Positions 4,823 through 43,616 of a stretch of DNA of 46,695 bases are shown piece by piece (within the stretch, counting starts at the first letter, position 1; the number at the start of each line of letters is the position of its first letter). Origin of the DNA: Nitrospirota bacterium (lineage in GTDB: Bacteria > Nitrospirota > Thermodesulfovibrionia > UBA6902); the NCBI GenBank assembly GCA_016234115.1, contig JACRHD010000010.1, positions 1 through 46,695 of the forward strand, written 5' to 3'. The translations under genes and the position numbers were made by a program. Under the pieces are notes generated by a model that made no database searches, had not been told where the DNA came from, and saw nothing but the letters and a program-made list of their open reading frames with translations.

Positions 4823-6154
4823 CTAGTCTTCCTTCAGAATCTTCCAGAGGCTGGTCCTCGATATCCCAAGCAGTTCGGCGGCCCTGGTTTTGTTGCCGTC
4901 GAGCATTTTGACCACCTTCTCCGCGTACTCCTTAACAATCTCGTCGACCGTCCTGATGCGATCAGGGTCTATCGTCTCTATATCAAGGACGCGGAGGCCG
5001 CGGGGCAGACTCTGAGGTGTTATCTGCCCGCCCGGCTCAAGTATGATGGCCCGCTCAATGATATTTTCCAGTTCCCTGACATTGCCGGGAAAGCTGTAAT
5101 TGCGCAATATTTCGAAGGCCTCGTCAGTAAACCCCGATATCTTCTTTTTGACCCGCGGCAGGTGTTTCTGGAGAAAATAGGCGCTTAACGGCCTGATGTC
5201 CTCGGGCCGCTCGCGGAGCGGGGGGATAAGGAATTCCATTATGTTTAGTCTGTAGTACAGGTCTTCCCTGAATTTACCCTCTGAGATCAGGCGTTTGACA
5301 TTCTGGTTTGTGGCGGCTATAAACCTGACGTCGACCTTCTTGGGCTTTGTCCCGCCTACGCTGTAGAACTCGCCGTCCTCAACGACCTTTAGAAGCTTCG
5401 CCTGAAGCTGGGGCGAAAGTTCCGCGATCTCATCCAGAAACAGTGTCCCGTTATCGGCGATCTCTACAAGCCCCTGTTTCGCGGTAAGCGCGCCCGTAAA
5501 AGCCCCGCGCTCGTGGCCGAAGAGTTCGCTCGCCAGGAGGTCTTCAGTGAGCGTCGCGCAGTTGAGGGAAAGGAAAGGCCGGTCCTGACGTCTGCTCGTA
5601 AAATGGATGATCTTGGCTATCAGGCTCTTTCCGACCCCGGTCTCGCCGGTCAGAAGCAGGTTGAAATCCGAAACCCTGATCCCTTCGATCGTATTTAAGA
5701 TCTTCTTCATCCCGTCGCTCTTGGCGATGATGGTGAAACGCTTGTCCATCCCGAAATAGGTTTTAAGGGCCTGGTTTTCTTTCCTCAGGACCTTCTGCTC
5801 CGCTATCTTTCGTACCCGCAAGGTCAGTTCGTCCAGGTCGAAGGGCTTTGTAATATAGTCGATGGCCCCTTTTTTCATCGCCTCTACGGCGGACCCTATG
5901 CTCCCGAACCCGGTTATTATGATCACGTCGGTCTGGGGATATTTTTCTTTTGTCTTTTCGAGCAGGTCCATCCCGCTAAGGCCGGGCATCCTTATATCCG
6001 TGACCAGAATATCGAAATCGGACTTCTCCATCCGCAGAAGGGCCTCGGCGCCGTCCGTCGTCCCGGAGACATCGTAGCCTTCATCCTTGAGGGAATCAAT
6101 AACATTTTCGAGGGTGATCTCTTCGTCTTCGGCAACCAGTATCTTTATAGCCAT
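4823..6154 (-). CDS. Sigma-54 enhancer-binding response regulator (NtrC family)
   Basis: This 443-residue regulator has three standard parts. The receiver domain (1-118) has acidic residues E9/D10, phospho-acceptor D53, T81 and K103. The AAA+ domain has Walker A GETGVGKS at 170-177, the sigma-54 contact loop GAFTGA at 217-222 and Walker B GTLFLDE at 236-242. A Fis-type helix-turn-helix lies at about 405-440 (NKTRAAELLGISRTSLWKIL). It starts eight bases after the sensor kinase gene, so the two form a two-component pair. It is the obvious candidate to bind the GTTYA-N5-TRAAC sites just downstream at 4626-4734 and the matching sites at 15308-15440. Confidence 0.93.
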   Translation of the reverse strand: MAIKILVAEDEEITLENVIDSLKDEGYDVSGTTDGAEALLRMEKSDFDILVTDIRMPGLSGMDLLEKTKEKYPQTDVIIITGFGSIGSAVEAMKKGAIDYITKPFDLDELTLRVRKIAEQKVLRKENQALKTYFGMDKRFTIIAKSDGMKKILNTIEGIRVSDFNLLLTGETGVGKSLIAKIIHFTSRRQDRPFLSLNCATLTEDLLASELFGHERGAFTGALTAKQGLVEIADNGTLFLDEIAELSPQLQAKLLKVVEDGEFYSVGGTKPKKVDVRFIAATNQNVKRLISEGKFREDLYYRLNIMEFLIPPLRERPEDIRPLSAYFLQKHLPRVKKKISGFTDEAFEILRNYSFPGNVRELENIIERAIILEPGGQITPQSLPRGLRVLDIETIDPDRIRTVDEIVKEYAEKVVKMLDGNKTRAAELLGISRTSLWKILKED

Positions 6155-15489: not shown

Positions 15490-15505
15490 TGGCATGCTTC
15501 ATGCT
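15490..15505 (+). promoter_or_regulatory. Sigma-54 promoter of the second USP/TauE cluster
   Basis: TGGCATG-CTTC-ATGCT, with the invariant GG and GC at correct spacing. The start codon is at 15536, after a GGGAGG ribosome binding site. Confidence 0.82.
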
Positions 15506-19398: not shown

Positions 19399-20760
19399 TT
19401 ACCCCTCCTCCATCCCATATTTTTTCAGCTTGCGCCAGAGAGAAACCCTGTCTATTCCCAGCACCTGCGCGGCTGCGGTCCTGTTGCCCCCGGTCTCGTT
19501 CAGGACCCATTTAATGTAAGACTCCTCCTGGGCATCGAGGGAGGGTATCCTGCCTTCTTTTTTCCTGAACGTCCTGATGCTCAGCTCCTTAAGGTCTTCG
19601 GGAAGATGGGCCGTCTCCATAATATTTCCGTTTGAAAGGGCCACTCCCCGCTCTATGATATTTTCCAGCTCCCTGACATTTCCCGGGAAGTCGTAATTCA
19701 TCAGCACCGCTATTACTTCCTGGGAAACGGCATTAACATCTTTTTTCATGAGGGTCGCATATTTTTTTAGAAAATAATAGCTCAGCATCGGGATATCTTC
19801 CCTCCTGTCCGACAGGGGAGGGATATGCAGAAAGACGACATTCATCCTGAAATACAGGTCCTGCCTGAAATCGCCCCTTTTTATCGCGTCGAGTATGTCC
19901 CTGTTTGTCGCAGCTATGAACCTGACATCGACCTTGAGCGGTCTTGTGGCGCCGAGCCTCAGCACCTCTCTTTCCTGTATGACCCTCAGGAGCTTCACCT
20001 GCATGGACGGGGGCATCTCCGTGATCTCGTCAAGGAAAAGCGTCCCTCCGGTCGCCATTTCGACGAGCCCTTTCTTGTCCGTTGTCGCGCCTGTAAACGC
20101 CCCTTTTTCATGACCGAACAGCTCGTTTGATAAAAGCTCCTCCGTGAAGGCGCCGCAATTAATCGCAAAGAACGGACCGCCTCCCCTTGCGCTGTGGATA
20201 TGGATGTACCTTGCGAACATTTCCTTCCCCGTGCCGCTTTCTCCGCTCAGCAGGACATTGCAGTCCGTCGGCGCGATCTGTTTGGACGTCTCAAGCAGCC
20301 TCTGCATCGCGGGGTCCTGGGTAATGATCCTGACCTTGCCTTCGAATTTTTCAAGCTGCTCCCTCAGTTGGGCGTTCTCCTTTTTCAGCCTTATTTTCTC
20401 GAGCGCTTCTTTGACGACCCTTCTCACCTCGTCAAGCTTGAAAGGCTTAGAAATGTAGTCGTAAGCCCCCTTCTTGATGGCCTGTATCGCGCTTTGTACG
20501 GTCGCGTATCCGGTTATCATGATCACCTCTGAGTCAGGATTAAGCTCACGGCACCTTTTCAGGAGCTGCATACCATCGACCTTTTCCATCTTTAAATCGG
20601 TCAACACTATATCAAACCCCTGTTCTTCGATCAGCTTCAGGGCCTGCTGCCCCTTCGAGGTCCCGATGACCGCGTATCCTTCCTTTTGCATAACGTGGAC
20701 CAGACTTCTCAGCGCAATCGTCTCGTCATCGGCGATCAGTATTTTAGGCTTTGTTTCCAT
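19399..20760 (-). CDS. Sigma-54 enhancer-binding response regulator, no adjacent kinase
   Basis: This 453-residue NtrC-family protein has a receiver with D11/D12, phospho-acceptor D55, T83 and K105. Its AAA+ domain has GESGTGKE at 173-180, GAFTGA at 220-225 and LFLDE just after, and a Fis-type helix-turn-helix (NRTAAAQVLGIDRVSLWRKL) is at the C-terminus. No histidine kinase is adjacent; kinases at 27066 or 39446 are possible partners. It is transcribed away from the promoter region at 20985-21178, which suggests it binds the TTGCA-N3-TGCAA sites there. It is distinct in sequence from the regulator at 4823. Confidence 0.93.
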   Translation of the reverse strand: METKPKILIADDETIALRSLVHVMQKEGYAVIGTSKGQQALKLIEEQGFDIVLTDLKMEKVDGMQLLKRCRELNPDSEVIMITGYATVQSAIQAIKKGAYDYISKPFKLDEVRRVVKEALEKIRLKKENAQLREQLEKFEGKVRIITQDPAMQRLLETSKQIAPTDCNVLLSGESGTGKEMFARYIHIHSARGGGPFFAINCGAFTEELLSNELFGHEKGAFTGATTDKKGLVEMATGGTLFLDEITEMPPSMQVKLLRVIQEREVLRLGATRPLKVDVRFIAATNRDILDAIKRGDFRQDLYFRMNVVFLHIPPLSDRREDIPMLSYYFLKKYATLMKKDVNAVSQEVIAVLMNYDFPGNVRELENIIERGVALSNGNIMETAHLPEDLKELSIRTFRKKEGRIPSLDAQEESYIKWVLNETGGNRTAAAQVLGIDRVSLWRKLKKYGMEEG

Positions 20761-20823
20761 TTTTGTATTCCGATCTAATGTTCAGTGTAGTGCGTCCGGC
20801 TTTTCTTTACATATGTTCAAGCC

Positions 20824-20912
20824 GTCATTCCCGCGGTCCTTAAGCGGGAATCCACCCTGAGGCCCTGAGCTTGTCGAAGGGTGGATTCCCGATTACTACC
20901 TCGGGAATGACA
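20824..20912. repeat. GTCATTCCCG palindromic repeat (REP-like)
   Basis: GTCATTCCCGCGG at the left is matched by an inverse CGGGAATGAC at the right. The centre contains the common CCTGAGCTTGTCGAAGGG element, so it looks composite. It lies upstream of the regulator gene. Confidence 0.75.
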
Positions 20913-20984
20913 GTTTTCAAGAGCTTCAATGTAGAGGGATTACGACTCACTACACTCGCTTCTATAACATCCTACCATTGTTGA

Positions 20985-20997
20985 TTGCATATTGCAA
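20985..20997. promoter_or_regulatory. TTGCA-N3-TGCAA palindrome, distal
   Basis: TTGCATATTGCAA, with a TGCAA half-site 20 bp downstream (21013-21017, in TGCAACATC). The same arrangement occurs at 26106-26138. Confidence 0.65.
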
Positions 20998-21071
20998 CAT
21001 AAGACGCCTTTGTGCAACATCATCTAAACGCCATATTAAACAGTTAGTTGCAGGGCGGTTAAATATCCACG

Positions 21072-21084
21072 ATGCATAATGCAA
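21072..21084. promoter_or_regulatory. TTGCA-N3-TGCAA palindrome, proximal (one mismatch)
   Basis: ATGCATAATGCAA. It ends 79 bp before the sigma-54 element at 21163; the corresponding site at 26227 ends 82 bp before its promoter. Two more TGCAA half-sites follow at 21110 and 21118. Confidence 0.6.
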
Positions 21085-21162
21085 TGTTTTAATCATTTCC
21101 TTCAGTTTGTGCAACGATGCAAAAATGCTGTTTTATCAGATCGATACATGTTTCTTCCGTCG

Positions 21163-21178
21163 TGGCATGGTTGTTGAT
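21163..21178 (+). promoter_or_regulatory. Sigma-54 promoter of the fused FAE-USP gene
   Basis: TGGCATG-GTTG-TTGAT has TGGCA and TTG at the right spacing with A for C at -12, exactly as in the promoter at 26321. It decides the start of the next gene, since transcription would begin after about 21189. Confidence 0.72.
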
Positions 21179-21230
21179 ATTAACCCCTTCAAATCCAGGA
21201 CACACTTTAAACGGAGATCAAAAAAAGAAC

Positions 21231-21710
21231 ATGAAAATGAAGAGATTTGAAGACCTGATGTCGGCCATCACCTTTGCCGAGGCAGGGGAACATGAGAAGG
21301 CGAGGGAGATCCTTCATAACAAGAATACGATATTGCTTGCGGTCTCCGAAGGGAAGGTCGATACAAATGTTTTCAGGTACGCCATAAATATAAGCAAGAG
21401 AATAAAGACGGCCATCGATGTCCTCTATCTGAAGATGTCGGAGGTAAAGAACGCGGCATTACATGAATTCCTCTCCGAGGCGGCAAAGGAGGGGATACCG
21501 TGCAATCTGGTCACTGAAGAAGGCTGCATGAAAAAGGCGATCCTCGACTATACGGAAAAAAGGAAGGACGTATTGTTTGTAGTAGTCGGCTCGACCCCCG
21601 AGCTCGATATCGAATGCAAAGGAGGTGGTAAGGCGCTGTCGGACGCGTGGAAGAAACTGAAGTGTCCGCTGGTGGTGGTTTCAAAAGGTGAAATGCCTTC
21701 AACGGCGTGA
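21231..21710 (+). CDS. FAE motif fused to a USP-like domain
   Basis: This 159-residue protein opens directly with the FAE motif (KMKRFEDLMSAITFAEAGE, then KAREIL, residues 2-28). It continues with a USP-like domain (NTILLAVSEGKVD, VLYLKMSE, GCMKKAILDYTEKR, WKKLKCPLVVVSK). The domain lacks the ATP loop. I chose the start at 21231 because the sigma-54 promoter lies inside the longer frame; an ACGGAGA ribosome binding site is about 14 bases upstream, and 21237 is a possible alternative start. The gene pair 26383/26550 is a split version of the same protein. Its function is unknown. Confidence 0.82.
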   Translation: MKMKRFEDLMSAITFAEAGEHEKAREILHNKNTILLAVSEGKVDTNVFRYAINISKRIKTAIDVLYLKMSEVKNAALHEFLSEAAKEGIPCNLVTEEGCMKKAILDYTEKRKDVLFVVVGSTPELDIECKGGGKALSDAWKKLKCPLVVVSKGEMPSTA

Positions 21711-21749
21711 AAACAGAGTTAAGAGTCAAGAGTCAAGAGTTTAGTAGGG

Positions 21750-21766
21750 GCGGGTTTCAAACCCGC
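21750..21766. repeat. Perfect GCGGGTTT hairpin
   Basis: GCGGGTTT-C-AAACCCGC sits between the FAE-USP gene and the permease gene, preceded by AAGAGTC heptamers (21718-21741). It belongs to the GTAGGGGCGGGT-type intergenic repeats and could be a processing or stabilising structure. Confidence 0.65.
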
Positions 21767-21803
21767 ACATGAAAAAAACAAAAACAGAAGGAGGAGAATC
21801 AAA

Positions 21804-23087
21804 ATGGGAACGGGAAGACGAGTATTTGAATTCCTGAAGATGGCGTCGATGGCCCACGCCAAATGGGACTATGAGGTCTCGATGAGCATCCTGAAGCAAA
21901 GGAAAAAAATGTGGCTGCTTCTTATCATGACGCTGCCGATAATCGCGGTAGGAATGGTGGAGGCGGGCGATATGTTAGGGAGCAAGACGGCTTACGCGCC
22001 GGCATTTTATTCAACCGGAATTTTTCTTGTGTCGATAGCAATCGGTTTGTGCGCGGGTCTTATTACCGGATGTATCGGAGCGGGAGGCGGCTTTATCATA
22101 ACCCCGGCCCTGATGGCGGCGGGAGTAAAAGGCATACTTGCAGTCGGCACCGATCTTTTCCATATCTTTGCAAAAGCGATAATGGGGACGGCTGTTCACA
22201 AAAAACTCGGCAACGTCTCGGGCAAGCTGGCAATCGCGTTCCTTGTCGGTTCCGCGGGCGGGACCTTCATCGGCGGCGCGATCAACAAGGGTCTCTATGA
22301 TTATGACCCGAACCTGAGTGAGGCCTTTATCAGCCTCATCTACGCGGTGCTGTTAGGTTTCCTCGGCTTCTACGCGCTGGCGGACTTCCTGAAGTCGAGA
22401 AAATCAAAAGACACGGGAGATGCTCACGGCGGAAGTTCCGGCCTGACAAGTCTCGCCGTCAAGGTACAGAATGTAAACATCCCGCCGGCAATAAGGTTTG
22501 ACGAGGACTTCGTTCCGGGCGGCAGGAAAATCTCCGGCGTGATCGTTGCGATGGGCGGCGTTGTCGTCGGGCTGATGGCTGCAATCATGGGCGTCGGCGG
22601 CGGCTTCATCACATTCCCGATGTTCGTTTATGTCTTCGGAGTATCATCGATGACGACGGTAGGGACCGACATCCTCCAGATCATCTTCACCGCAGGTCTC
22701 GCCGCAACTACACAGTATGCGATTTACGGATATGTGTTTTACACGCTCGCTATGGGAATGCTCCTCGGCTCACTCATAGGCATTCAGGTGGGGGCGCTCA
22801 CAACAAAGGTCGTAAAAGGAATACACATCAGGGGCTTCTATGCAGTTTCCATTCTCGCGGGTTTTATCAACAGGGCCGCTACACTTCCCAAGAAACTTGT
22901 GGAACTTGAAGTCATCAACTGGTCTAAGCCCGTTGTCAAGGGGATCGAAACCGCCGGCAATTACATATTCTGGATAGTCGTCGCGGCCTTCGCGGTATGG
23001 GTCATAGGCAAATTCGTGGCAAATATCGGTGTATTGCGCGGCGAGGAAGATTATGCGAAGCCGGAGCTTGTAAAGGAGGAGGCGTAA
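21804..23087 (+). CDS. Large TauE/SafE-family permease
   Basis: This 427-residue permease is longer than the other two in the window. The N-terminal 35 residues are cytosolic and amphipathic. A first half carries GCIGAGGGFIITPAL and GTDLFHIF, and a second half MGVGGGFITFPMFVY and GTDILQIIF. Between them lies a soluble linker of about 50 residues (SRKSKDTGDAHGGSSG onward), and a C-terminal extension has one more helix. As I recall, permeases of this size occur in sulfate-reducing and related bacteria. The substrate is probably a sulfur oxyanion or small organic anion. It forms an operon with the next gene (one base apart). Confidence 0.87.
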   Translation: MGTGRRVFEFLKMASMAHAKWDYEVSMSILKQRKKMWLLLIMTLPIIAVGMVEAGDMLGSKTAYAPAFYSTGIFLVSIAIGLCAGLITGCIGAGGGFIITPALMAAGVKGILAVGTDLFHIFAKAIMGTAVHKKLGNVSGKLAIAFLVGSAGGTFIGGAINKGLYDYDPNLSEAFISLIYAVLLGFLGFYALADFLKSRKSKDTGDAHGGSSGLTSLAVKVQNVNIPPAIRFDEDFVPGGRKISGVIVAMGGVVVGLMAAIMGVGGGFITFPMFVYVFGVSSMTTVGTDILQIIFTAGLAATTQYAIYGYVFYTLAMGMLLGSLIGIQVGALTTKVVKGIHIRGFYAVSILAGFINRAATLPKKLVELEVINWSKPVVKGIETAGNYIFWIVVAAFAVWVIGKFVANIGVLRGEEDYAKPELVKEEA

Positions 23088-23088
23088 C

Positions 23089-23799
23089 ATGTTAGTGAAA
23101 AATAAAAAGACATTCAGTTTGGGAGTAGTTTTTGCGATATCCTTTCTTGCCGTACTGGCATTGATATTCACTCCGGTGTTTAACGGGAAGAACGGGCTCG
23201 TATTTTCGGACGACAGCTTCAACAAGTTAGCCAAGGGCTCTTCATACTTTATACCGAAGGTCATGAAGTCGGTAGAAAAAATTGCGGGCAAATCCGTTTC
23301 CGTGACCATTAAAACAGAAAACGCGGAGCAGGCCGGGAATACGGCAAAGCTCTTTACTGCCGCGGGCGCGACCGCTGCTGTAAATGGACAGGAAATGAAG
23401 GTGGAAGGCGACCTCGGGGCCATTCTTCAAAGCGCGCTTCGGGACGCCGACGCCATGTATAAGAACGAAGGCAAGGCCGTTGCCGACCGGTACGGTTATG
23501 ATGAAAAGGCGGTTTTGAAGAACTGGTGGACTGCGTTGACCGGCATTGAAAAGAACCTGAAGAAAGAGAAGCTCATCGCAGAGGCGAAGGTCGTAGCCGA
23601 AGTCGTCAAAAAGGGAGTGGAGCCCGGCTACAATTTCTACAAGATCGACGCCAACAAGGTCGCCGACCACGCGGGCATGATGTCCGGACTGTTGATATTC
23701 TATGTGGCTTATACCATGTGGTGGGGATACGCCATATTCTATATCTTCGACGGTCTCGGGCTGAGCATGAAAAAGGCAAAGGTGAAGAAAGAAGCGTAG
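23089..23799 (+). CDS. Membrane protein of unknown function, permease partner
   Basis: This 236-residue protein has an N-terminal helix (about 11-30), an extracytoplasmic region with mixed helices (31-190), and a C-terminal helix LIFYVAYTMWWGYAIFYIF before a basic tail. It starts one base after the permease stop, with AAGGAGGAGG inside the end of the permease gene, so the two are translationally linked. Two-helix architecture and position recall the TIGR02186 proteins next to the smaller permeases, but no sequence motif is shared. It may play the same accessory role. Confidence 0.75.
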   Translation: MLVKNKKTFSLGVVFAISFLAVLALIFTPVFNGKNGLVFSDDSFNKLAKGSSYFIPKVMKSVEKIAGKSVSVTIKTENAEQAGNTAKLFTAAGATAAVNGQEMKVEGDLGAILQSALRDADAMYKNEGKAVADRYGYDEKAVLKNWWTALTGIEKNLKKEKLIAEAKVVAEVVKKGVEPGYNFYKIDANKVADHAGMMSGLLIFYVAYTMWWGYAIFYIFDGLGLSMKKAKVKKEA

Positions 23800-23807
23800 A
23801 AAAAAAA

Positions 23808-23868
23808 GGGTCAAGGGTCAAGGGTCAAGGGTCAAGTTATTTCCCTGGACCCCGGCCCCTTGCCCCTT
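23808..23868. repeat. GGGTCAA heptamer array with an inverse arm
   Basis: Four GGGTCAA units (23808-23837) face CCCTGGACCCC-GGCCCCTTGCCCC on the other side, so the array can fold back on itself. It lies between two genes of the same operon. Confidence 0.75.
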
Positions 23869-23886
23869 AAAGTTCAGGGAGAAACA

Positions 23887-24744
23887 ATGTCAAAATACAG
23901 AAAAATACTGGTGGCTGTCGACGGGTCGGAATCAGGCAAAAATGCCTTCAGGCAGGCCTGCCGGATCGCCCGTGACGACAAGAGCTGGATAACCGTTATT
24001 ACCGCCATGCCTGTCTTCCCGGACCAGTTCGATGTGCTCAGCACAAAGGAGAAGGCGACCAGGGCGCTGCTTGAAGAAGGGGAAAAAATCCTCACGGAGA
24101 TAATCAGGGTCGCCAAAGAGGAAGACACCATTATCAGGCCGGCGCTTAAAGAGGGGAGTCCCTTTGAAATGATCCTCGAGACCGCGGAAGAGGGCAATTA
24201 CGACCTGATCGTCATGGGAAGAAGAGGCAAGTCGCGCATCGAAAAGACGCTCGTGGGAAACGTTGCCGCCGGGGTCATAGTGCACAGCCGGAGGGACGTA
24301 CTCGTTGTTCCCAAAGACGCCGAATTAGGATGGGGAAATATTCTTCTGCCTACGGACGGGTCGAAATACAGCGGTTTCGCGGCGGAAAAGGCGATGGAGA
24401 TCGCGACTTCTTACGGCGGGAAGATTACGGTCGTGTCGGTCGTCGACGTTACGGATGAATTCTCCGCGCAGGCGCCGGAGGCCGTCGAGGAACTTATAAG
24501 GAAGGCACACGCATTTACGGAAGACATCAGAAAAAGGGGTAACGGGCTTAACATTACGGCGCTGGTAAAGGAGGGCGAGACGTACGAGGTCATCACGAAG
24601 CTTGCCGGAGAATGCCTGTCGAACGTTATCGTCATGGGGAGCCACGGCAGGACGGGGGTCAGGAGATTTCTCATAGGCAACGTGACGGAGAAGGTCATAG
24701 GGTATGCGCCCTGCCCGGTGCTTGTAGTGAAGGAAAGCCGTTAG
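23887..24744 (+). CDS. Tandem-domain universal stress protein
   Basis: This 285-residue protein has two UspA domains with nucleotide loops GRRGKSRIEKTLVGN and GSHGRTGVRRFLIGN (Asn replacing the final Ser). It starts SKYRKILVAVDGSESG. I placed the start at 23887 behind CAGGGAGA, because the upstream frame is repeat sequence. It is more distant from the two cluster copies (1402 and 18016) than they are from each other. It probably belongs to the operon started at 21163. Confidence 0.9.
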   Translation: MSKYRKILVAVDGSESGKNAFRQACRIARDDKSWITVITAMPVFPDQFDVLSTKEKATRALLEEGEKILTEIIRVAKEEDTIIRPALKEGSPFEMILETAEEGNYDLIVMGRRGKSRIEKTLVGNVAAGVIVHSRRDVLVVPKDAELGWGNILLPTDGSKYSGFAAEKAMEIATSYGGKITVVSVVDVTDEFSAQAPEAVEELIRKAHAFTEDIRKRGNGLNITALVKEGETYEVITKLAGECLSNVIVMGSHGRTGVRRFLIGNVTEKVIGYAPCPVLVVKESR

Positions 24745-24771
24745 CTTATTATTGAGTACATCCGCTGTAGC

Positions 24772-24855
24772 GTCATTCCCGCAGTCTGTTGAGCGGGAAT
24801 CCAGGGTTCTTTAAGACGCAAAAATGGATTCCGGCTTAAAGACTGCCGGAATGAC
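24772..24855. repeat. GTCATTCCCG palindromic repeat (REP-like)
   Basis: GTCATTCCCGCAGTCTGTTGAG opens and ACTGCCGGAATGAC closes an imperfect palindrome of about 84 bp. It separates the stress protein gene from the small FAE gene. Confidence 0.75.
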
Positions 24856-24903
24856 AGAAAGTTAGGACATTATTATTACAGACGAGAAACAAAGGAGGTT
24901 GCT

Positions 24904-25071
24904 ATGAAAAGGATAATCAGAAAACTGGAGAAGATGATGACGGCGGCCGCGTTCGCCGAAGCGGGGGAGCATGACGCCGCAAGAGAGATAATGAGGGAGA
25001 AAGAGACGCGGTATGACAGCAGAGACACTACGCGGCCCCCGGCGCGCCCGAAAAATCAGCTCAGGGCGTAG
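24904..25071 (+). CDS. Free-standing FAE-motif small protein
   Basis: This 55-residue protein consists almost entirely of the recurring motif: KLEKMMTAAAFAEAGE (8-22) and AAREIM (25-30), then a basic, Pro-rich tail ending RPKNQLRA. A strong AAAGGAGG ribosome binding site precedes the start. The predicted structure is two short helices joined at a Gly-Glu turn. It matches the 55-residue protein of 26383 in length, motif position and tail. Both may be adaptors that act with USP-like partners; this is inference. Confidence 0.78.
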   Translation: MKRIIRKLEKMMTAAAFAEAGEHDAAREIMREKETRYDSRDTTRPPARPKNQLRA

Positions 25072-25097
25072 CAGCGCCCGTGCGACGTTCTCGATAA

Positions 25098-25160
25098 GTG
25101 CCCCTTATTATGGGCAGCCACGGACGGTCGGGTTTTGGGAAATTTATGACGCTACTACGA
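25098..25160 (+). pseudogene. Remnant of a universal stress protein C-terminus
   Basis: In one frame the bases encode PLIMGSHGRSGFGKFM, the end of the USP nucleotide loop, with no intact frame upstream. It follows the free FAE gene, so a USP gene once stood here, as one still does after the FAE gene at 26383. It overlaps the 3' end of the HepT gene by a few bases. Confidence 0.55.
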
Positions 25161-25547
25161 AAGCTCTTTTACAAGTTTCGTGAAATCTCTAAGGGCGGCA
25201 GGGATGCTTTTATGGACGATACTGTAATCGACCTCTTCATATTCGTGAGCAAGGATATTTCTTAAGCCTGCGCTCAGTGCGAGCTTCTTACTCAGACTCC
25301 TGCTGATCAGTCCCATTTCTCCCGCCCGCAAAAAAGCCGCCCTGTAAGATGCCGGTGCGGGTTCCCCCTTTGCTGTTATAAGATGAAAAACTATATCACT
25401 GGAGGTCATCACAAGGAGTTCCAGAATGCGCTCGATCTCATAATGCTTCTGCATGAAGTCTTTAAACGTGATCTTCCTGTACGGCATGAGATCGTTCAGA
25501 TAACCGGTAAGCGAAACAAGTTTTTTCTTTATGACATCAGGCGACAT
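25155..25547 (-). CDS. hepT: HepT-type RNase toxin (DUF86)
   Basis: This 130-residue all-helical protein has the R-x4-H-x-Y active-site motif RNILAHEY near residue 95 and a typical helical N-terminus (KDFMQKHYEIERILELLVMTSSDI). HepT proteins are HEPN RNases whose activity is blocked when the partner MntA adenylylates the motif tyrosine. The gene overlaps the MntA gene by 11 bases. The pair has been inserted beside a degraded USP gene. Confidence 0.85.
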   Translation of the reverse strand: MSPDVIKKKLVSLTGYLNDLMPYRKITFKDFMQKHYEIERILELLVMTSSDIVFHLITAKGEPAPASYRAAFLRAGEMGLISRSLSKKLALSAGLRNILAHEYEEVDYSIVHKSIPAALRDFTKLVKELS

Positions 25548-25938
25548 GGGCGACCTTTCTCTTAAGGGCCTTCAGATATTTATCGTTAAAGCGGCGTATC
25601 CTTGCAGTGTCGAGATAGAGCTTCCAGGCCCTTAATTTCTGATTGATGAAAATGCCTTTTTTGCTTTCATAAAGAGGTCTGCCCCGGAAAAATATTTCAT
25701 AAAGAAGGAGCGGGTCTGTTTCCGGCGTCAGGACGACAAGGTCAATTTTTTTGCCGTCAAAAAACTCATCGAGCCCGTAAATCAATTTCAGCTTCGAGAC
25801 CTTGCTTTTCCATTTTAATAAGACGGCAATATCGATATCGCTTCCGGCATGTTCTGTACCGGTAGCGCTTGAGCCAAACTGCACGAGGAGCTGAATATGA
25901 TTTCCCCAGCAATACTTTTTAAACTCTCCCTTTTTCAT
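25537..25938 (-). CDS. mntA: MntA-type nucleotidyltransferase antitoxin
   Basis: This 133-residue minimal nucleotidyltransferase has the signature GSSATGTEHAGSDIDIAVLL (GS-x10-DxD) at about 23-42 and a third acidic residue in KKIDLVVL. It is expected to use ATP to modify and silence HepT. The order antitoxin then toxin on the minus strand, with overlap, is standard for this system. Confidence 0.85.
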   Translation of the reverse strand: MKKGEFKKYCWGNHIQLLVQFGSSATGTEHAGSDIDIAVLLKWKSKVSKLKLIYGLDEFFDGKKIDLVVLTPETDPLLLYEIFFRGRPLYESKKGIFINQKLRAWKLYLDTARIRRFNDKYLKALKRKVAHVA

Positions 25939-26105
25939 AGCTTTTCCAAAACAGCGGCAATGCCTGCCTCTAAATTAACAGAACAATAATCAGATGTCAA
26001 AAATTATTCGCGGAAGAGAGTTGATGGCCTGCCGATTGCATAAACTCAGGCGCTGAGGAGATGGTCATGAAAGAATTAGGAGTCTGGGGACAGGGAGTTA
26101 TAATG

Positions 26106-26118
26106 TTGCATAGTGCAA
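26106..26118. promoter_or_regulatory. TTGCA-N3-TGCAA palindrome, distal, with half-site
   Basis: TTGCATAGTGCAA, followed 20 bp later by the half-site TGCAACATC (26134-26142). Both the spacing and the half-site sequence repeat those at 20985-21021. Confidence 0.68.
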
Positions 26119-26226
26119 TCCCTATTCCTTAAATGCAACATCTTTTACAATGAAAGGTAAAAGATAAGCATTATATGGTGTTATACTCCGCATGCGGCGG
26201 GGATTATTGATAAACCTGAATTCTAA

Positions 26227-26239
26227 TTGCAAAATGCAA
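26227..26239. promoter_or_regulatory. TTGCA-N3-TGCAA palindrome, proximal
   Basis: TTGCAAAATGCAA, ending 82 bp before the sigma-54 element at 26321. No gene is present in 25939-26382. Confidence 0.66.
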
Positions 26240-26320
26240 CGTTTATGCCCTGGCGGCCCTTGTTATCATAAAACTAAGGTGAGTCAATAATTTTAAGGGG
26301 TTACGAGGTTTGATCGGGCC

Positions 26321-26336
26321 TGGCACGGATTGTGAT
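26321..26336 (+). promoter_or_regulatory. Sigma-54 promoter of the split FAE/USP pair
   Basis: TGGCACG-GATT-GTGAT. The -24 half is a perfect match; the -12 has GA for GC, the same deviation as in the promoter at 21163. The start codon follows 47 bp later. Confidence 0.75.
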
Positions 26337-26382: not shown

Positions 26383-26550
26383 ATGAAAAAGATTCTGAAA
26401 AAGATGGAAGATGTTTATGCCGCGGCCGCCTTTGCCGAAGCCGGGGAGGAGGAGAGCGCAAGAGAAATTTTAAGAGGCGAAAAGCGGACCGAAAAAAGAG
26501 ACCAGCTCACCAAAAGGCCGCGCACGCAAATGAGGGCCCCCGGGAAATAA
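26383..26550 (+). CDS. Free-standing FAE-motif small protein
   Basis: This 55-residue protein contains KMEDVYAAAAFAEAGE (7-22), SAREIL (25-30) and a basic tail ending RTQMRAPGK. It is preceded by AAAGGAGGG. The stop codon overlaps the next start (TAATG), so the following USP-like gene is translationally coupled. Together the two genes correspond to the single fused protein of 21231-21710. Confidence 0.82.
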   Translation: MKKILKKMEDVYAAAAFAEAGEEESAREILRGEKRTEKRDQLTKRPRTQMRAPGK

Positions 26551-26996
26551 TGTTTATGAATGAGCCGTCGGGAGCGCCCGAAAAAAACCATAAAACCGTC
26601 CTCCTTGCCGTTTCCGATGGGGCTTTTGACAGGAGCGCCCTGAGATATGCCCTGAGCATAAGTGAAAGAATGAGGGCGAGTCTGGAAATACTTTACGTAT
26701 CCGCTTCCGAAAAGGACCGGAAGGGACTCAAAGTTTTTTTATCGGAGGTCGAAAGAGTGGGCTTCAGATTCAGCCTCGTGATGAAACACGGCTGCGTAAA
26801 AAAGGCGATACTCGACTATACGGATAAAAGGAGCGAGATACTGTTTGTGATAGTCGGGGCCGAGAGAGAACTGAATATCGGATGTGATGCAAGGGAAAAT
26901 TCTTTTGAGAACGCGTGGAAAAATATGAAATGTCCTCTCGTGGTGGTTTCAAAAAACGGGGCCGGCAGCGGGACAAAAAAAGTTTCAAGGCCTTAA
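26550..26996 (+). CDS. USP-like protein, partner of the small FAE protein
   Basis: This 148-residue protein aligns with residues about 30-155 of the fused protein at 21231. Shared blocks include KTVLLAVSDGAFD, a long helix FRYA/LRYALSISERM, GCVKKAILDYTDKR, ILFVIVG and MKCPLVVVSK. It lacks the USP ATP loop. It has no ribosome binding site of its own and depends on the TAATG junction. The extra C-terminal tail (GSGTKKVSRP) is basic. The exact role is unknown. Confidence 0.8.
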   Translation: MFMNEPSGAPEKNHKTVLLAVSDGAFDRSALRYALSISERMRASLEILYVSASEKDRKGLKVFLSEVERVGFRFSLVMKHGCVKKAILDYTDKRSEILFVIVGAERELNIGCDARENSFENAWKNMKCPLVVVSKNGAGSGTKKVSRP

Positions 26997-27065: not shown

Positions 27066-29336
27066 ATGCATAGCACTCACTCCAAAGATATCGGTTCCTC
27101 AAGTCCCGGACTGAAGGGCCACATTCTTCGTTTCATAGAAAGATACAGGCTTTTTCATTTGAGCACGGTCCAGATTACACTGGCCCTGATTACCCCTGTC
27201 CTGCTCGCGGCAGTCCTTATTCTTGGCTGGACATACTCAAAGAAGGTAAAGGAAATTGTAACCAACGATTTCAATCAACAGCAATTGGTCCTTTCCCAGC
27301 TCGCGGCAAGGCAGATAGAAAACAGACTGAATCTCCTCAAGAAGGAATTATCTTTGCTCAGCCTGTCGCCGTCCATTCAGTATTTTGAAAGGGTCTCGAT
27401 GGGCAAGAGAATGGGTATCACTTTTTCGAGCATCAGGGAGGAAGGGGCATTGGAAATAAGATACGTTGAATCCACGGGACAGAGGACCCATCTGCTCGAC
27501 AGCGGCGGTCACCAGGTCGGCAATTCAGCCCCGGAAGACCGTAAATGTCTGGAATGGGCGCGTCACGCGGAGAATAAAGGGAGCATCCTTCTCAGGGAAC
27601 GCGAAGCGCCGTGGAGACGAAAAGAGGACGGGAAGGAATTTCTTGTAATGAAAATGGCAGTGCCTGTCTGGCAGGTATCCGTTGATGAGGCAAACCCAGT
27701 GGCGACCAATAAATTCTCGGGCGTTCTGCTGTTTACCGTCGATACAACTGAAATGATAAAAAAAATAACGAAGGGCATCAGATCGGGAAGGACCGGGTAT
27801 GCATGGGTCATAAATAAAAGCGGGACCTTCCTCTATCACCCTGAAAGAGAATTCATAGGGAAAAATGCCTTTGAGGCGAGAAAGGAAAAAAAGCCCACAA
27901 TATCCTTTGACAGGATCAACGAGATACAAAAGAAACTGATGCTCACCGGAAAGGAGGGAACGAGCTGGTATATCTCCGGATGGCACAGGGGGGAGCAGGG
28001 GGAGATGAAGAAGCTGATTGCCTATACGCCGATCCATCTCGGCCAGCCTGAAAGCCATTTGTGGTCGGTGGCGGTCGTGGCCCCGATAAGCGAAGTCGAG
28101 AATGCAATCCATTCCATACATATACGCCAGTTTTCGCTGCAAACACTTATTATCGTCATTATTCTGTTGGGAGGCATAACGCTTATTTCCTTTATGATAA
28201 CCTGGTCCCATGCCCTTGAGCAGGAGGTCGCAAAGAAGACCATCGCATTAAAGAAATCGGAAAACCGGCACAGGCTGCTCATAGAAAATGCCAACGACAT
28301 CATATTTACGGTGAATCCGGCAGGTGATATTACATCCATAAATAAGGCGGGATCGGTATTTTTCAGAAAACCCAGAGAAGAGCTTGTGGGAGAAAACATA
28401 GGGGAGATATGTCACAATGAGAGCGGCGCTTCCCTGCAGTTCAGGGCCATCGACGATGTATACAAAACCGGAGAAAGCAGACAGATAGTCTATTCGGTCA
28501 GCATTGACGACAATGAATACTGGCTGAGCACGAATTTCAACGCCCTTCAGGATGAAAAAGGAGACGTCTCCTCCGTGCTCGGAATCGCCAGAGACATTAC
28601 GAGAAGGAAGAAGATGGAAGAGCAGATGTTTCATACGGAGAAGCTTGCGTCGGTGGGGACCCTGGCGGCGGGCGTGGCGCATGAGATAAACAACCCTCTT
28701 GCGATAATTCTCGGTTTTACCGACCTGCAGCTTGAGAAGACGTCTCCGGACTCGGAGCTTTATGAGATTCTCAAGACCATAGAAAGACAGGGAACAAACG
28801 CCAAAAGGGTCGTCGAGAACCTTTTGAGCTTTACGCGCTTCTCAGAGCAGGTTGAAGAATATGTAGACGTCAATCAGAATATTAACTCCGTGCTGTCTGT
28901 TATAGGCAATACTGCATCTCTCAGCAAGATTAATCTCGACAAGAATTTGTCTGCGTCCCTCCCCCCGGTCAAAGGGCATTCCGGAGAATTACAGCAGGTC
29001 TTTTTCAATATCATAAACAACGCGATATCGGCTATGAAGGCCGGGGGAAATCTTTCTATCGTTACCGGGCCCTCTGACGACGGCAGAGGGGCCGAGATAA
29101 GAATATCCGATACGGGTTGCGGGATAGAAAGTCAGCACAGAGCCAGGATATTCGATCCCCTCTTCACTACAAAAAAGGTGGGTGAAGGCACCGGATTAGG
29201 TCTTTTTGTTTCTTATGGTATTATAACCAAGCATGGCGGCGCGATAACCTTTGATTCAAGGACCAGGGAAGAAGCTGCCGAATCGGGAACGACCTTTATA
29301 ATAACTTTGCCGGCGGGAAGCCCAGTGAATATTTGA
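27066..29336 (+). CDS. Sensor histidine kinase with Cache-like and PAS domains
   Basis: This 756-residue kinase has a first membrane helix (about 35-56) and a large periplasmic domain to 356 whose second half has GRTGYAWVINKSGTFLYHP, the dCache signature. A second helix lies at 357-379, then a PAS domain (400-515; ENANDIIFTVNPAGDITSIN) and a phosphoacceptor helix with H539 in AAGVAHEINNP. The ATPase domain has NIINNAISAM, DTGCGI and GTGLGLFVS. It probably senses a small extracellular ligand. Two single receivers follow (29439, 29998); either could be a partner, as could the orphan regulator at 19399. Confidence 0.92.
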   Translation: MHSTHSKDIGSSSPGLKGHILRFIERYRLFHLSTVQITLALITPVLLAAVLILGWTYSKKVKEIVTNDFNQQQLVLSQLAARQIENRLNLLKKELSLLSLSPSIQYFERVSMGKRMGITFSSIREEGALEIRYVESTGQRTHLLDSGGHQVGNSAPEDRKCLEWARHAENKGSILLREREAPWRRKEDGKEFLVMKMAVPVWQVSVDEANPVATNKFSGVLLFTVDTTEMIKKITKGIRSGRTGYAWVINKSGTFLYHPEREFIGKNAFEARKEKKPTISFDRINEIQKKLMLTGKEGTSWYISGWHRGEQGEMKKLIAYTPIHLGQPESHLWSVAVVAPISEVENAIHSIHIRQFSLQTLIIVIILLGGITLISFMITWSHALEQEVAKKTIALKKSENRHRLLIENANDIIFTVNPAGDITSINKAGSVFFRKPREELVGENIGEICHNESGASLQFRAIDDVYKTGESRQIVYSVSIDDNEYWLSTNFNALQDEKGDVSSVLGIARDITRRKKMEEQMFHTEKLASVGTLAAGVAHEINNPLAIILGFTDLQLEKTSPDSELYEILKTIERQGTNAKRVVENLLSFTRFSEQVEEYVDVNQNINSVLSVIGNTASLSKINLDKNLSASLPPVKGHSGELQQVFFNIINNAISAMKAGGNLSIVTGPSDDGRGAEIRISDTGCGIESQHRARIFDPLFTTKKVGEGTGLGLFVSYGIITKHGGAITFDSRTREEAAESGTTFIITLPAGSPVNI

Positions 29337-29438: not shown

Positions 29439-29861
29439 ATGCCTGAGAAATTATTGGTAGTAGATGACGAACCCGACATGCTGAAGTTATTGAGCATGAT
29501 CATCAGAGAGAAGACCTCTTATGAAGCAATTATGACCAACAACCCGTTCGAAGCCCTCGAGATGATTAAAAACGGAGGGTGCGACCTCGTGATTGCGGAC
29601 CTGAAAATGCCGGGACTTGACGGCATAGAGCTCCTTGACGCCATCAGGCAGACTGATCATGATATACCTGTAATTATAATAACCGCGTTCGGTACTGTTG
29701 AATCAGCGATAGAGACCATGGGGAAAGGTGGCTTTGATTTTATCACAAAACCGTTCAAGAAAGAACAGATACTCTTCACAATAGACAAGGCCTTGAAGTG
29801 GGCCTGTCTTCAGAAAGAAAACAGGACGCTGAAGACAAGATTAAAGCAGTTTGAGGGGTAA
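29439..29861 (+). CDS. Single-domain response regulator (canonical receiver)
   Basis: This 140-residue protein is a stand-alone receiver: D9/D10, phospho-acceptor D54 in LVIADLKMP, T82 region IIITAFG and K104 in FITKPF are all intact. The last 20 residues form a coiled-coil-like tail (LQKENRTLKTRLKQFEG), the linker that would lead to an AAA+ domain in NtrC-type proteins. It therefore looks like an NtrC regulator reduced to its receiver. It follows the kinase by 102 bp. Confidence 0.9.
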   Translation: MPEKLLVVDDEPDMLKLLSMIIREKTSYEAIMTNNPFEALEMIKNGGCDLVIADLKMPGLDGIELLDAIRQTDHDIPVIIITAFGTVESAIETMGKGGFDFITKPFKKEQILFTIDKALKWACLQKENRTLKTRLKQFEG

Positions 29862-41245: not shown

Positions 41246-41635
41246 ATGGAACACAAACTCCGCATGATGATAATCGACGACGAGCCGATAGTCGGCAGGA
41301 GGCTCAGCCGTATGTTTGAAAGGGACGGGTATGAAGTCGAGACCTTCATCGACAGTGAAGCGGCAGCGAGGGAGCTGGAAAACAGGACTTACGAAATCAT
41401 TATCACCGACCTCAAGATGCAGAATGTCGACGGGATCAGGATACTTGAAACCGCCGTAGAGAAGAACCCTGACGTTAAGGTAATCATCATTACGGGTTTC
41501 GGCAGGAAAGAGACGGCCAAGGAGGCCTTCCGCAAAGGCGCCTTCGCTTTTATCATAAAACCCTTCAGGTTTGAGGAGCTTCGCCAGGTCATCAGGAAGG
41601 CTGAAAAAGAAATCAGGAATTTTTCATCAGGATGA
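41246..41635 (+). CDS. Single-domain response regulator
   Basis: This 129-residue stand-alone receiver has IIDDEP (D10/D11), the phospho-acceptor Asp in IIITDLKMQNVDG, T in IIITGFG and K in FIIKPF, all intact. There is no output domain. It follows the kinase at 39446. Its last codons overlap the 3' end of the receiver-Lon gene on the other strand (41613-41635), so the two genes converge. Its output may be protein interaction, perhaps with that protease. Confidence 0.9.
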   Translation: MEHKLRMMIIDDEPIVGRRLSRMFERDGYEVETFIDSEAAARELENRTYEIIITDLKMQNVDGIRILETAVEKNPDVKVIIITGFGRKETAKEAFRKGAFAFIIKPFRFEELRQVIRKAEKEIRNFSSG

Positions 41636-43616
41636 GGTCTGCCATGTCCTCGATCCTGTCTACCGTCCTGATGTCCAGGTCCTTCCGGACGTCCTGGGGA
41701 AGGTTGTCGATGTCCACCCTGTTTTTCGACGGCAGTATCACTGATTTCACGCCGGCCCTGCGCGCCGCAAGGAGTTTCTCCTTTATCCCGCCCACCGGCA
41801 GTATCCGGCCGCTCAATGTTATTTCACCGGAAACCGCCACGTCCCTTTTCGCCGGTCTTCCCGTTAAAAGGGACATGAGCGAAATCGCGATAGTGGTGCC
41901 GGCAGACGGCCCGTCTTTCGGAATCGCCCCTGCAGGGACATGAACGTGCACGTCGCTGAATTCAAAAAAGTCCTCATCTATATTCAACGATGCGGCGTGA
42001 CTCCTTATGTAACTTAATGCGGCCTGGGCGGATTCACGCATGACATTGCCTAAAGAACCTGTAAGTATAAGCTCGCCCTTACCCTTCATCTTCGCGGCCT
42101 CGACAAATATAATTGCTCCTCCGACCTCGGTCCAGACAAGCCCGGTGGCGACCCCCACGCGGTTCTCCTCATCCGTCACCTCAAAATAATACCTCCCGGG
42201 GCCGAGATATTTTTCAACGGCCTCAGGCGTGACCTTTATATTTTCCCCTTCCTCATGATGAACGAAGCCGGCGGCTATCTTCCTGCAGACAGAGGCGATC
42301 TGTCTTTCGAGGTTTCTTATCCCGGCCTCCCGCGTATATTCCCGGATGATTTTTGAAACTGCCTCCCCCGTGAATTCGGGCGGATACTCTGAGAGGCCTT
42401 TCTCATGTATATGCTTCGGCACGAGATAACGCAGGGCTATTTCCATTTTCTCATCTTCCGTGTAGCCCGAAAATTCGATGACCTCCATGCGGTCCCTCAG
42501 CGCGTCAGGGATATTGTCGGCGACATTTGCCGTTACTATAAACATGACGCTCGACAGGTCGAACGGCACGTCAAGGTAATGGTCGATGAAATTATTGTTC
42601 TGCTCCGGATCGAGGGCCTCGAGAAGGGCCGACGCGGGGTCCCCTTTGAAATCATGTCCTACCTTGTCGAGCTCATCCAGCATGAGGACCGGGTTGGATG
42701 ACTGCGCCCTGTTGATCTCATCTATAATGCGTCCGGGCATTGCGCCGGCATAGGTCCTTCGGTGCCCCCTTATTTCGGCTTCGTCTTTTATCCCGCCCAA
42801 TGAAATCCTCGCGAACTTCCTGCCTAACGCGTCCGCGATGGCCTTGCCCAGGGACGTCTTCCCCGTACCGGGCGGCCCGGCGAAACAGAGGACGGAGCCC
42901 TTGGTCGATCTCTTTGAATGCTTTTTCTCAAGCGCCCTCTTTACGGTATCGCGCACGTCGTCGAGTTTGAAAGGTTTTGCGATATAATGAAAGGCCCCCT
43001 TTTTGATGGAATCGACGGCGGAATCCACGGAGGCATAACCCGTAATCATAATGACCTGGGTGTCGGGATATTTGTGCTTTGCCTTCTCAAGGACATCGAG
43101 GCCGCTGACCTTTTCCATCCTGATGTCGGTAATAACGACGTCGAAGTCAAAATCGTTCAGCCTGTTCAATGCCTCGGTCCCGCTGTTCGCCGTCACTATC
43201 GCGTACCCTTCCTTGCTCAGAGCGTGGTCCAGGTTTTTCAGCACAACCTTTTCATCATCGACTACGAGTATCCGGGGTTTCTTATTGATGACCAGTATCT
43301 TTACGGCAAGATGCTCTAATATCCTTTCCTTTATCTCTCTCAGGCCGTAATGTCTTTCATCCAGCACCTTCGCGGCCCTTTCAATGTCGAGGTTGTCCTC
43401 GGTCTTTTTGCTCCACGGCAGGCCGATGACATAATCGATATAGGAAAGCCCGATTGAGTATTCCGCCACGGAGGGATTTATCCGGGACAGCATTTCAAGC
43501 TCGTTGTGGGCTACCTGCTGAACGTGCCGGGGTAATTTGGCCAGGTCGATTTTCTGCCGCAATTCCCCTAAGGCTTCATTCTGGAGTTTTTCGTCCGATT
43601 TTTTGAAAAGGCCCAT
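41613..43616 (-). CDS. Lon-type protease with an inserted receiver domain
   Basis: This 667-residue protein starts with the helical segment of Lon (1-105; PEYSIGLSYIDYVIGLPW-like, NLDIERAAKVLDERHYGLREIKERILE) but lacks the N-terminal LON substrate domain. A complete receiver follows (113-232; D120/D121, D164, T192, K214), placed exactly between LAV and the Walker A (GPPGTGKT, 247-254). The AAA+ module (Walker B VLMLDELDK) and the protease domain with the S571/K612 dyad (PKDGPSAG, GGIKEKLL) are intact. Normal Lon is about 780-810 residues without a receiver. I infer an ATP-dependent protease gated by phosphorylation. The nearest kinase is at 39446. Confidence 0.9.
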   Translation of the reverse strand: MGLFKKSDEKLQNEALGELRQKIDLAKLPRHVQQVAHNELEMLSRINPSVAEYSIGLSYIDYVIGLPWSKKTEDNLDIERAAKVLDERHYGLREIKERILEHLAVKILVINKKPRILVVDDEKVVLKNLDHALSKEGYAIVTANSGTEALNRLNDFDFDVVITDIRMEKVSGLDVLEKAKHKYPDTQVIMITGYASVDSAVDSIKKGAFHYIAKPFKLDDVRDTVKRALEKKHSKRSTKGSVLCFAGPPGTGKTSLGKAIADALGRKFARISLGGIKDEAEIRGHRRTYAGAMPGRIIDEINRAQSSNPVLMLDELDKVGHDFKGDPASALLEALDPEQNNNFIDHYLDVPFDLSSVMFIVTANVADNIPDALRDRMEVIEFSGYTEDEKMEIALRYLVPKHIHEKGLSEYPPEFTGEAVSKIIREYTREAGIRNLERQIASVCRKIAAGFVHHEEGENIKVTPEAVEKYLGPGRYYFEVTDEENRVGVATGLVWTEVGGAIIFVEAAKMKGKGELILTGSLGNVMRESAQAALSYIRSHAASLNIDEDFFEFSDVHVHVPAGAIPKDGPSAGTTIAISLMSLLTGRPAKRDVAVSGEITLSGRILPVGGIKEKLLAARRAGVKSVILPSKNRVDIDNLPQDVRKDLDIRTVDRIEDMADLILMKNS

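Follow-up and report, generated by a model that had tools for sequence, protein, structure and literature searches.

A predicted sigma-54 enhancer array, conserved in Nitrospirota and Desulfobacterota, for an NtrC-type regulator of stress-protein operons

Introduction

Two sigma-54 promoters in a Nitrospirota genome deviate from the consensus at the same base and are each preceded by palindromes. Which protein acts through these palindromes, and do the sites matter beyond this one genome? The window analyzed here is the 46,695-nucleotide stretch at positions 1 to 46,695 of contig JACRHD010000010.1 (assembly GCA_016234115.1). NtrC- and glnA-type sigma-54 enhancers consist of paired palindromic sites for a response-regulator activator, located upstream of a −24/−12 promoter. 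Both operons in the window are very probably switched on by a neighboring response regulator, encoded at 19399, because an array of near-identical spacing precedes their counterparts in dozens of distant bacteria. To trace this array, 10–20 kb around the orthologs of the operon, the regulator and a receiver-Lon gene were compared in Nitrospirota and Desulfobacterota, with one further order sampled through shorter stretches. Sigma-54 boxes are throughout matches to consensus.

Results

Two promoters share an array of sites

The elements upstream of the two operons (A and B) are as follows.

20985–20997, forward strand: distal palindrome (P1) of operon A, TTGCATATTGCAA, exact and conserved in orthologous promoters
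21013–21021, forward strand: half-site TGCAACATC of operon A, exact, starting 20 bp after the start of the P1 right half
21072–21084, forward strand: proximal palindrome (P2) of operon A, ATGCATAATGCAA, one mismatch
21163–21178, forward strand: sigma-54 promoter A, TGGCATGGTTGTTGAT (TGGCAT-GGTTG-TTGAT), consensus match, conserved in 22 Nitrospirota promoters
26106–26118, forward strand: P1 of operon B, TTGCATAGTGCAA, exact
26134–26142, forward strand: half-site TGCAACATC of operon B, exact, starting 20 bp after the start of the P1 right half
26227–26239, forward strand: P2 of operon B, TTGCAAAATGCAA, exact
26321–26336, forward strand: sigma-54 promoter B, TGGCACGGATTGTGAT (TGGCAC-GGATT-GTGAT), consensus match

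The first-pass annotation of this DNA had assigned two TTGCA-N3-TGCAA palindromes to each promoter. Three are exact, but the fourth, at 21072, is one base off. A letter-by-letter check reproduced the gaps it gave between the end of the near palindrome and the −24 box (79 and 82 bp), and at each promoter the half-site does follow the distal right half at exactly 20 bp. The −12 deviation that it saw at both promoters (TTGAT and GTGAT) can likewise be read from the letters, the −12 GC being without its C in each. The palindromes themselves are 87 bp apart in operon A and 121 bp apart in operon B.

Exact TTGCA-N3-TGCAA occurs four times in the whole 3.5-Mb genome, three times at these promoters; the fourth copy lies in AT-rich DNA between rpoB and rpoC and was judged to be there by chance. 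The palindrome combined with the 20-bp half-site (14 fixed bases) has exactly two copies in the genome, both at these promoters, and a reversed control pattern gave no genomic match with up to one mismatch allowed. A single palindrome was rejected as diagnostic because AT-rich genomes without the regulator can hold many of them; for example, one that has no ortholog (G026) contains 17 exact copies. A wider regulon list from a one-mismatch search of the bacterium's own genome was dropped, as its 97 sites were too many.

The array is conserved in two phyla

The first-pass annotation had let its proposal stand or fall with the presence of these sites in orthologous promoters. They are present there, with conserved spacing, in both phyla. 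In most relatives that have the regulator, the orthologous operon is preceded by the same array, in the order distal GTTGCA-N3-TGCAAC (the extended consensus), half-site, proximal palindrome and promoter; some of these sites were accepted with one or two mismatches. In 30 orthologous Nitrospirota promoters (approximately 12 kb), we counted 36 exact and 23 one-mismatch palindromes, compared with 0.07 and 1.07 in dinucleotide shuffles. The Desulfobacterota with palindromes upstream of the orthologous operon include genomes of 57–65% G+C. Two operons (G025 and G035) have one clear palindrome each, and a third (G013) has no clear palindrome, though that genome has the regulator.

Spacing is conserved along with sequence. 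The proximal palindrome is 89–94 bp from the −24 box in 42 of 48 loci, which are phylogenetically related, and 78–80 or 68 bp from it in the others. As TG[CT]AA, the half-site is found in 36 of 47 loci at 20–22 bp past the right half of the distal palindrome, with five matches over 18 other offsets combined; its p-value is optimistic, as is that of the IHF-like site described below, because the patterns were written after viewing the alignments. Distances between the palindromes cluster at 76–77, 86–90, 121–122 and 133–137 bp, with one at 186 bp. The fixed distance of about 91 bp, with exceptions one or two turns shorter, would fit a face-of-the-helix requirement; the helical phasing of the rarer spacings (p about 0.03) is suggestive at most.

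Related genes stand behind both promoters, hence the sites could simply be copies left by a recent duplication, present by chance or shared ancestry and functionless. However, the flanks, the N3 spacers and the palindrome spacing (87 versus 121 bp) differ between the two promoters. Flanks and spacers are also unconserved across relatives, which argues against mere recent ancestry, and between phyla only the sites and their spacings persist. We consider this explanation refuted by the comparative data and its probability negligible.

The half-site has a variant form in other genomes. In several genomes of the order containing the Desulfovibrio-like loci L277 and L278, a second near-palindrome 18 bp on takes the place of the half-site. 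Upstream of the receiver-Lon gene in the high-GC genomes of L282–L290, the near-palindrome 18 bp past the distal palindrome is CTGCAAACTGCA. This form suggests a degenerate second dimer site, of which the half-site would be one arm.

The divergent regulator is the probable binder

19399–20760, reverse strand: NtrC-type response regulator, proposed binder and activator, with receiver (PF00072), sigma-54 AAA+ (PF00158) and Fis-type HTH (PF02954) domains
4823–6154, reverse strand: paralogous NtrC-type regulator with a FAE/TauE/USP cluster of its own (promoter near 15490, operon from 15665)

The 19399 product combines in one protein the three domains by which an NtrC-type response regulator is recognized, and its translation includes the GAFTGA loop that contacts sigma-54. 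The first-pass annotation had named this protein as the likely binder, and several lines of sequence evidence support that assignment. Across 41 genomes, the regulator and the FAE-USP gene of operon A occur together in 23, are both missing from 14, and occur singly in only 4 (p = 3e-7). In relatives, the regulator gene is mostly divergent from the operon. Where it has been relocated (G013, G021, G022 and G007), an exact palindrome is found 72–187 bp upstream of it. The recognition helix, IDRVSLWRK, is near-invariant wherever the sites occur, even in orthologs that are 47–60% identical overall, and in a quick-version tree the form [DN]R[VA]SLWR falls on one side of a branch with 100% support, against the SRTSLW (ISRTSLWK) of the paralogue. 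Binding and activation by the 19399 regulator would account for this pattern.

Another regulator, such as the paralogue, could instead bind the palindromes, with the 19399 protein merely nearby. There is precedent for shared sites in the paralogous DVU0539 and DVU0946 (PMC3333781), and FAE/TauE/USP clusters are served by both regulators. However, none of the paralogue's 15 operons, which hold the same kinds of genes, contains a TTGCA-N3-TGCAA palindrome. They have a different one, approximately TGTTCATATTCTAAACA, and the recognition helices differ as well (SRTSLW in the paralogue, DRVSLW in the 19399 protein). Relocated genes of the 19399 type, moreover, keep the palindromes with them. We therefore regard a different binder as improbable.

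A role for the 19399 regulator confined mainly to repressing or autoregulating its own divergent gene, with the operons driven by other means, seems to us very unlikely. Only about 225 bp separate the distal palindrome from the regulator's start codon, and relocated regulator genes have a palindrome without a clear sigma-54 promoter, both as autoregulation would have it. Against this, the distance from the proximal site to the −24 box is near-fixed in two phyla, the complete array precedes operon B, which has no regulator gene divergent from it, and in D. vulgaris DVU3305 binds at the divergent operon as well as at its own (PMC3333781). Activation of both operons by the 19399 regulator thus remains our preferred reading.

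A sister regulon has a canonical −12 box

The paralogue's promoters have a canonical TGC at −12, and the palindrome approximating TGTTCATATTCTAAACA lies 40–130 bp upstream of them in about ten relatives. The first-pass annotation spoke of a second sigma-54 regulon, and the paralogue's separate cluster, different palindrome and canonical −12 box bear this out.

In relatives with the 19399 regulon, the promoter takes the form TGGCAY-N5-TTG(A/T), about 91 bp past the proximal palindrome, in Nitrospirota and Desulfobacterota alike. When 22 Nitrospirota promoters were compared with TGGCAY-N5-TTGCW, the −24 box and the spacing were present and the −12 C was missing in 21; the C is found in 1 of these 22 and in 4 of 25 Desulfobacterota promoters. 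In the same genomes, each of the 11 clear promoters that belong to operons of the paralogous regulator has TGC, versus 1 of 22 in the 19399 regulon (p = 6e-8, with related sequences). Going beyond the first-pass annotation, which had noted it at two promoters, the comparison identifies the −12 deviation as a property of the 19399 regulon. A C-less −12 box across a whole regulon, with the sister regulon normal, would provide a natural experiment on the role of that base in sigma-54 promoters.

A predicted bend site lies before each promoter

21134–21146, forward strand: IHF-like site TATCAGATCGATA of operon A, 29 bp before the −24 box, agreeing with the consensus at 7 of 9 positions
26291–26303, forward strand: IHF-like site TTTTAAGGGGTTA of operon B, 30 bp before the −24 box, likewise agreeing at 7 of 9 positions

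With a match defined as at least 7 of 9 positions of WATCAANNNNTTR, 45 of 66 promoters have an IHF-like site approximately 28–30 bp before the −24 box, compared with a match in 26 of 330 control windows. From this position, IHF may have a role at these promoters.

The operons encode stress proteins and a candidate sensor

21231–21710, forward strand: fusion of FAE motif and USP fold (AlphaFold2/Foldseek), first gene of operon A, with orthologs in 24 of 41 genomes
21804–23087, forward strand: TauE/SafE-family anion permease, operon A (PF01925, E 4e-37)
23089–23799, forward strand: conserved membrane protein, operon A, no Pfam or NCBIfam match
23887–24744, forward strand: tandem universal stress protein, operon A (PF00582, two copies)
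24904–25071, forward strand: small FAE-motif protein (55 aa), operon A
26383–26550, forward strand: small FAE-motif protein of 55 aa, which opens operon B
26550–26996, forward strand: USP-like protein, operon B, 46% identical to the 21231 product
27066–29336, forward strand: sensor histidine kinase (dCache, PAS and HisKA domain matches), third gene of operon B, a layout also seen in G007 and G032
29439–29861, forward strand: single-receiver response regulator (PF00072), probable end of operon B

Both promoters had been said to drive FAE-motif plus USP-like genes, and this description holds. The 21231 product matches no Pfam family, but its AlphaFold2 model (mean pLDDT 78) matches USP structures in Foldseek, which places its C-terminal part in the USP fold. 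The FAE-motif proteins form a small family of about 55 aa with the pattern AAxAFAEAGExxxAREI (24904–25071, 26383–26550 and the N-terminus of 21231–21710), which no Pfam or NCBIfam model matches. Such a protein is often the first gene of these stress operons, and in the Desulfovibrio-like L277 and L278 its motif reads VAYAERNMDGEAKRIL.

Since operon B includes the sensor kinase, the genes under the regulator's control probably include a candidate for its own sensor. In the close relatives G005 and G004, most genes of operons A and B are in a single run, while in G007 and G032 they are split as in the window. Between the two operons (25155–25938, reverse strand) lie two small overlapping genes that, as read from the sequence, resemble a HEPN/nucleotidyltransferase-type pair, which may have separated them. 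Intergenic inverted repeat elements, GTCATTCCCG... ...GGGAATGAC, occur near both operons, at 20820–20915 and 24770–24870, and resemble dispersed palindromic repeats.

A receiver-Lon protease accompanies the regulator

41613–43616, reverse strand: receiver-Lon protease fusion (Lon-RR) of the DVU3303 type, with Response_reg, AAA and Lon_C matches

The domain matches identify this gene as the partner expected of a DVU3305-like regulator. In its product, the receiver domain is inserted in the N-terminal part of the Lon protease. In the phylum searched, 48 of the 395 genomes sampled have a receiver-Lon gene, as do many Nitrospirota.

In many relatives, the receiver-Lon gene adjoins the regulator or the operon. 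The order Lon-RR, kinase, regulator is found in L137, L141, L274, L277 and L278, and four of these (L137, L141, L277 and L278) have the FAE/TauE/USP operon divergent from the set. In the window these genes are scattered, with no kinase gene adjoining the 19399 regulator. The regulator's receiver is most similar to that of Lon-RR (53% identical, the closest regulator-containing pair in the window), which is consistent with a shared kinase. The 19399 regulator also shares a clade with Desulfobacterota regulators that adjoin Lon-RR, apart from the paralogue. The Lon-RR/kinase order accompanies the 19399 ortholog, for which reason the paralogue was set aside as the DVU3305 ortholog.

Discussion

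We hold with good confidence that both promoters depend on sigma-54 and that they are activated by the phosphorylated 19399 regulator through the palindromes and half-site together with a DNA bend. This regulator is probably the counterpart in Nitrospirota of DVU3305, the response regulator in the Lon-RR/kinase/RR stress system. In the mechanism that we propose, phosphorylated regulator dimers would occupy both GTTGCA-N3-TGCAAC palindromes, and a further dimer would be held cooperatively at the half-site, about two helical turns from the distal site. The bound dimers would nucleate the ATPase ring, and IHF or an HU-type protein would bend the stretch from the proximal site to the promoter at a conserved site approximately 29 bp before the −24 box. 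The ring would remodel sigma-54 polymerase, which sits at a promoter whose −12 box is weak. The predicted output of operon A is an anion permease of the TauE type along with stress proteins of the USP and FAE-motif kinds, and that of operon B a FAE/USP/sensor-kinase module. By analogy, the signal may be general or anion stress.

A bolder reading, which we offer tentatively and think somewhat doubtful, is that the array represents a deeply conserved enhancer "grammar". The distal palindrome and half-site would nucleate an oligomer of three dimers or more, the second palindrome and bend site would be kept at fixed distances, and the weak −12 box would make the stress operon strictly activator-dependent. 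Any change in spacing would come in whole helical turns, and the array would have been maintained across Nitrospirota and Desulfobacterota. The comparison yields predictions of the binding site, the complete promoter anatomy and the regulon for a widespread, little-studied receiver-Lon/kinase/NtrC-type stress system in two phyla, mostly in uncultivated bacteria.

Parts of this architecture resemble known systems. With NtrC/glnA-type enhancers, operons A and B have in common the paired palindromic activator sites before a −24/−12 promoter, but they differ in the sequence of the sites, the half-site after the distal palindrome, the IHF-like site in between and a −12 box without its C. With IHF-assisted sigma-54 promoters such as nifH and Pu, they share an IHF-consensus site between activator sites and promoter, while activator and function differ.

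The closest likeness is to the DVU3303-DVU3304-DVU3305 three-component stress system (PMC3333781, PMC4641369, PMC10102598), which also comprises a receiver-Lon protein, a histidine kinase and an NtrC-type regulator. In Desulfovibrio vulgaris, DVU3303-3305 is divergent from DVU3302-3298, and the targets mapped for DVU3305 are its own operon and the divergent one, which encodes UspA and membrane proteins (PMC3333781). As in the layout seen in relatives of the window genome, the divergent operon encodes UspA proteins and a putative anion transporter. In a later fitness study, the DVU3303-3305 genes were co-fit and were linked to the anion transporter DVU3299, needed under chlorate (PMC10102598). 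Orthologs of DVU3305 with a conserved site have been noted in Thermodesulfovibrio, a member of the Nitrospirota (PMC3333781). The likeness is one of genes, domains and layout; the DVU3305 motif is published as a figure logo, and a search of the accessible literature for TTGCA-N3-TGCAA as a literal motif returned nothing. The window differs from D. vulgaris in that its Lon-RR gene is 21 kb from the regulator, a second operon has the same array, and the activator loop reads GAFTGA in the 19399 product versus GAFSGA in DVU3305. Judged by the shared features, the 19399 system probably belongs to a kind of stress signaling already studied in Desulfovibrio, to which the present comparison adds the description of a cis architecture that spans two phyla.
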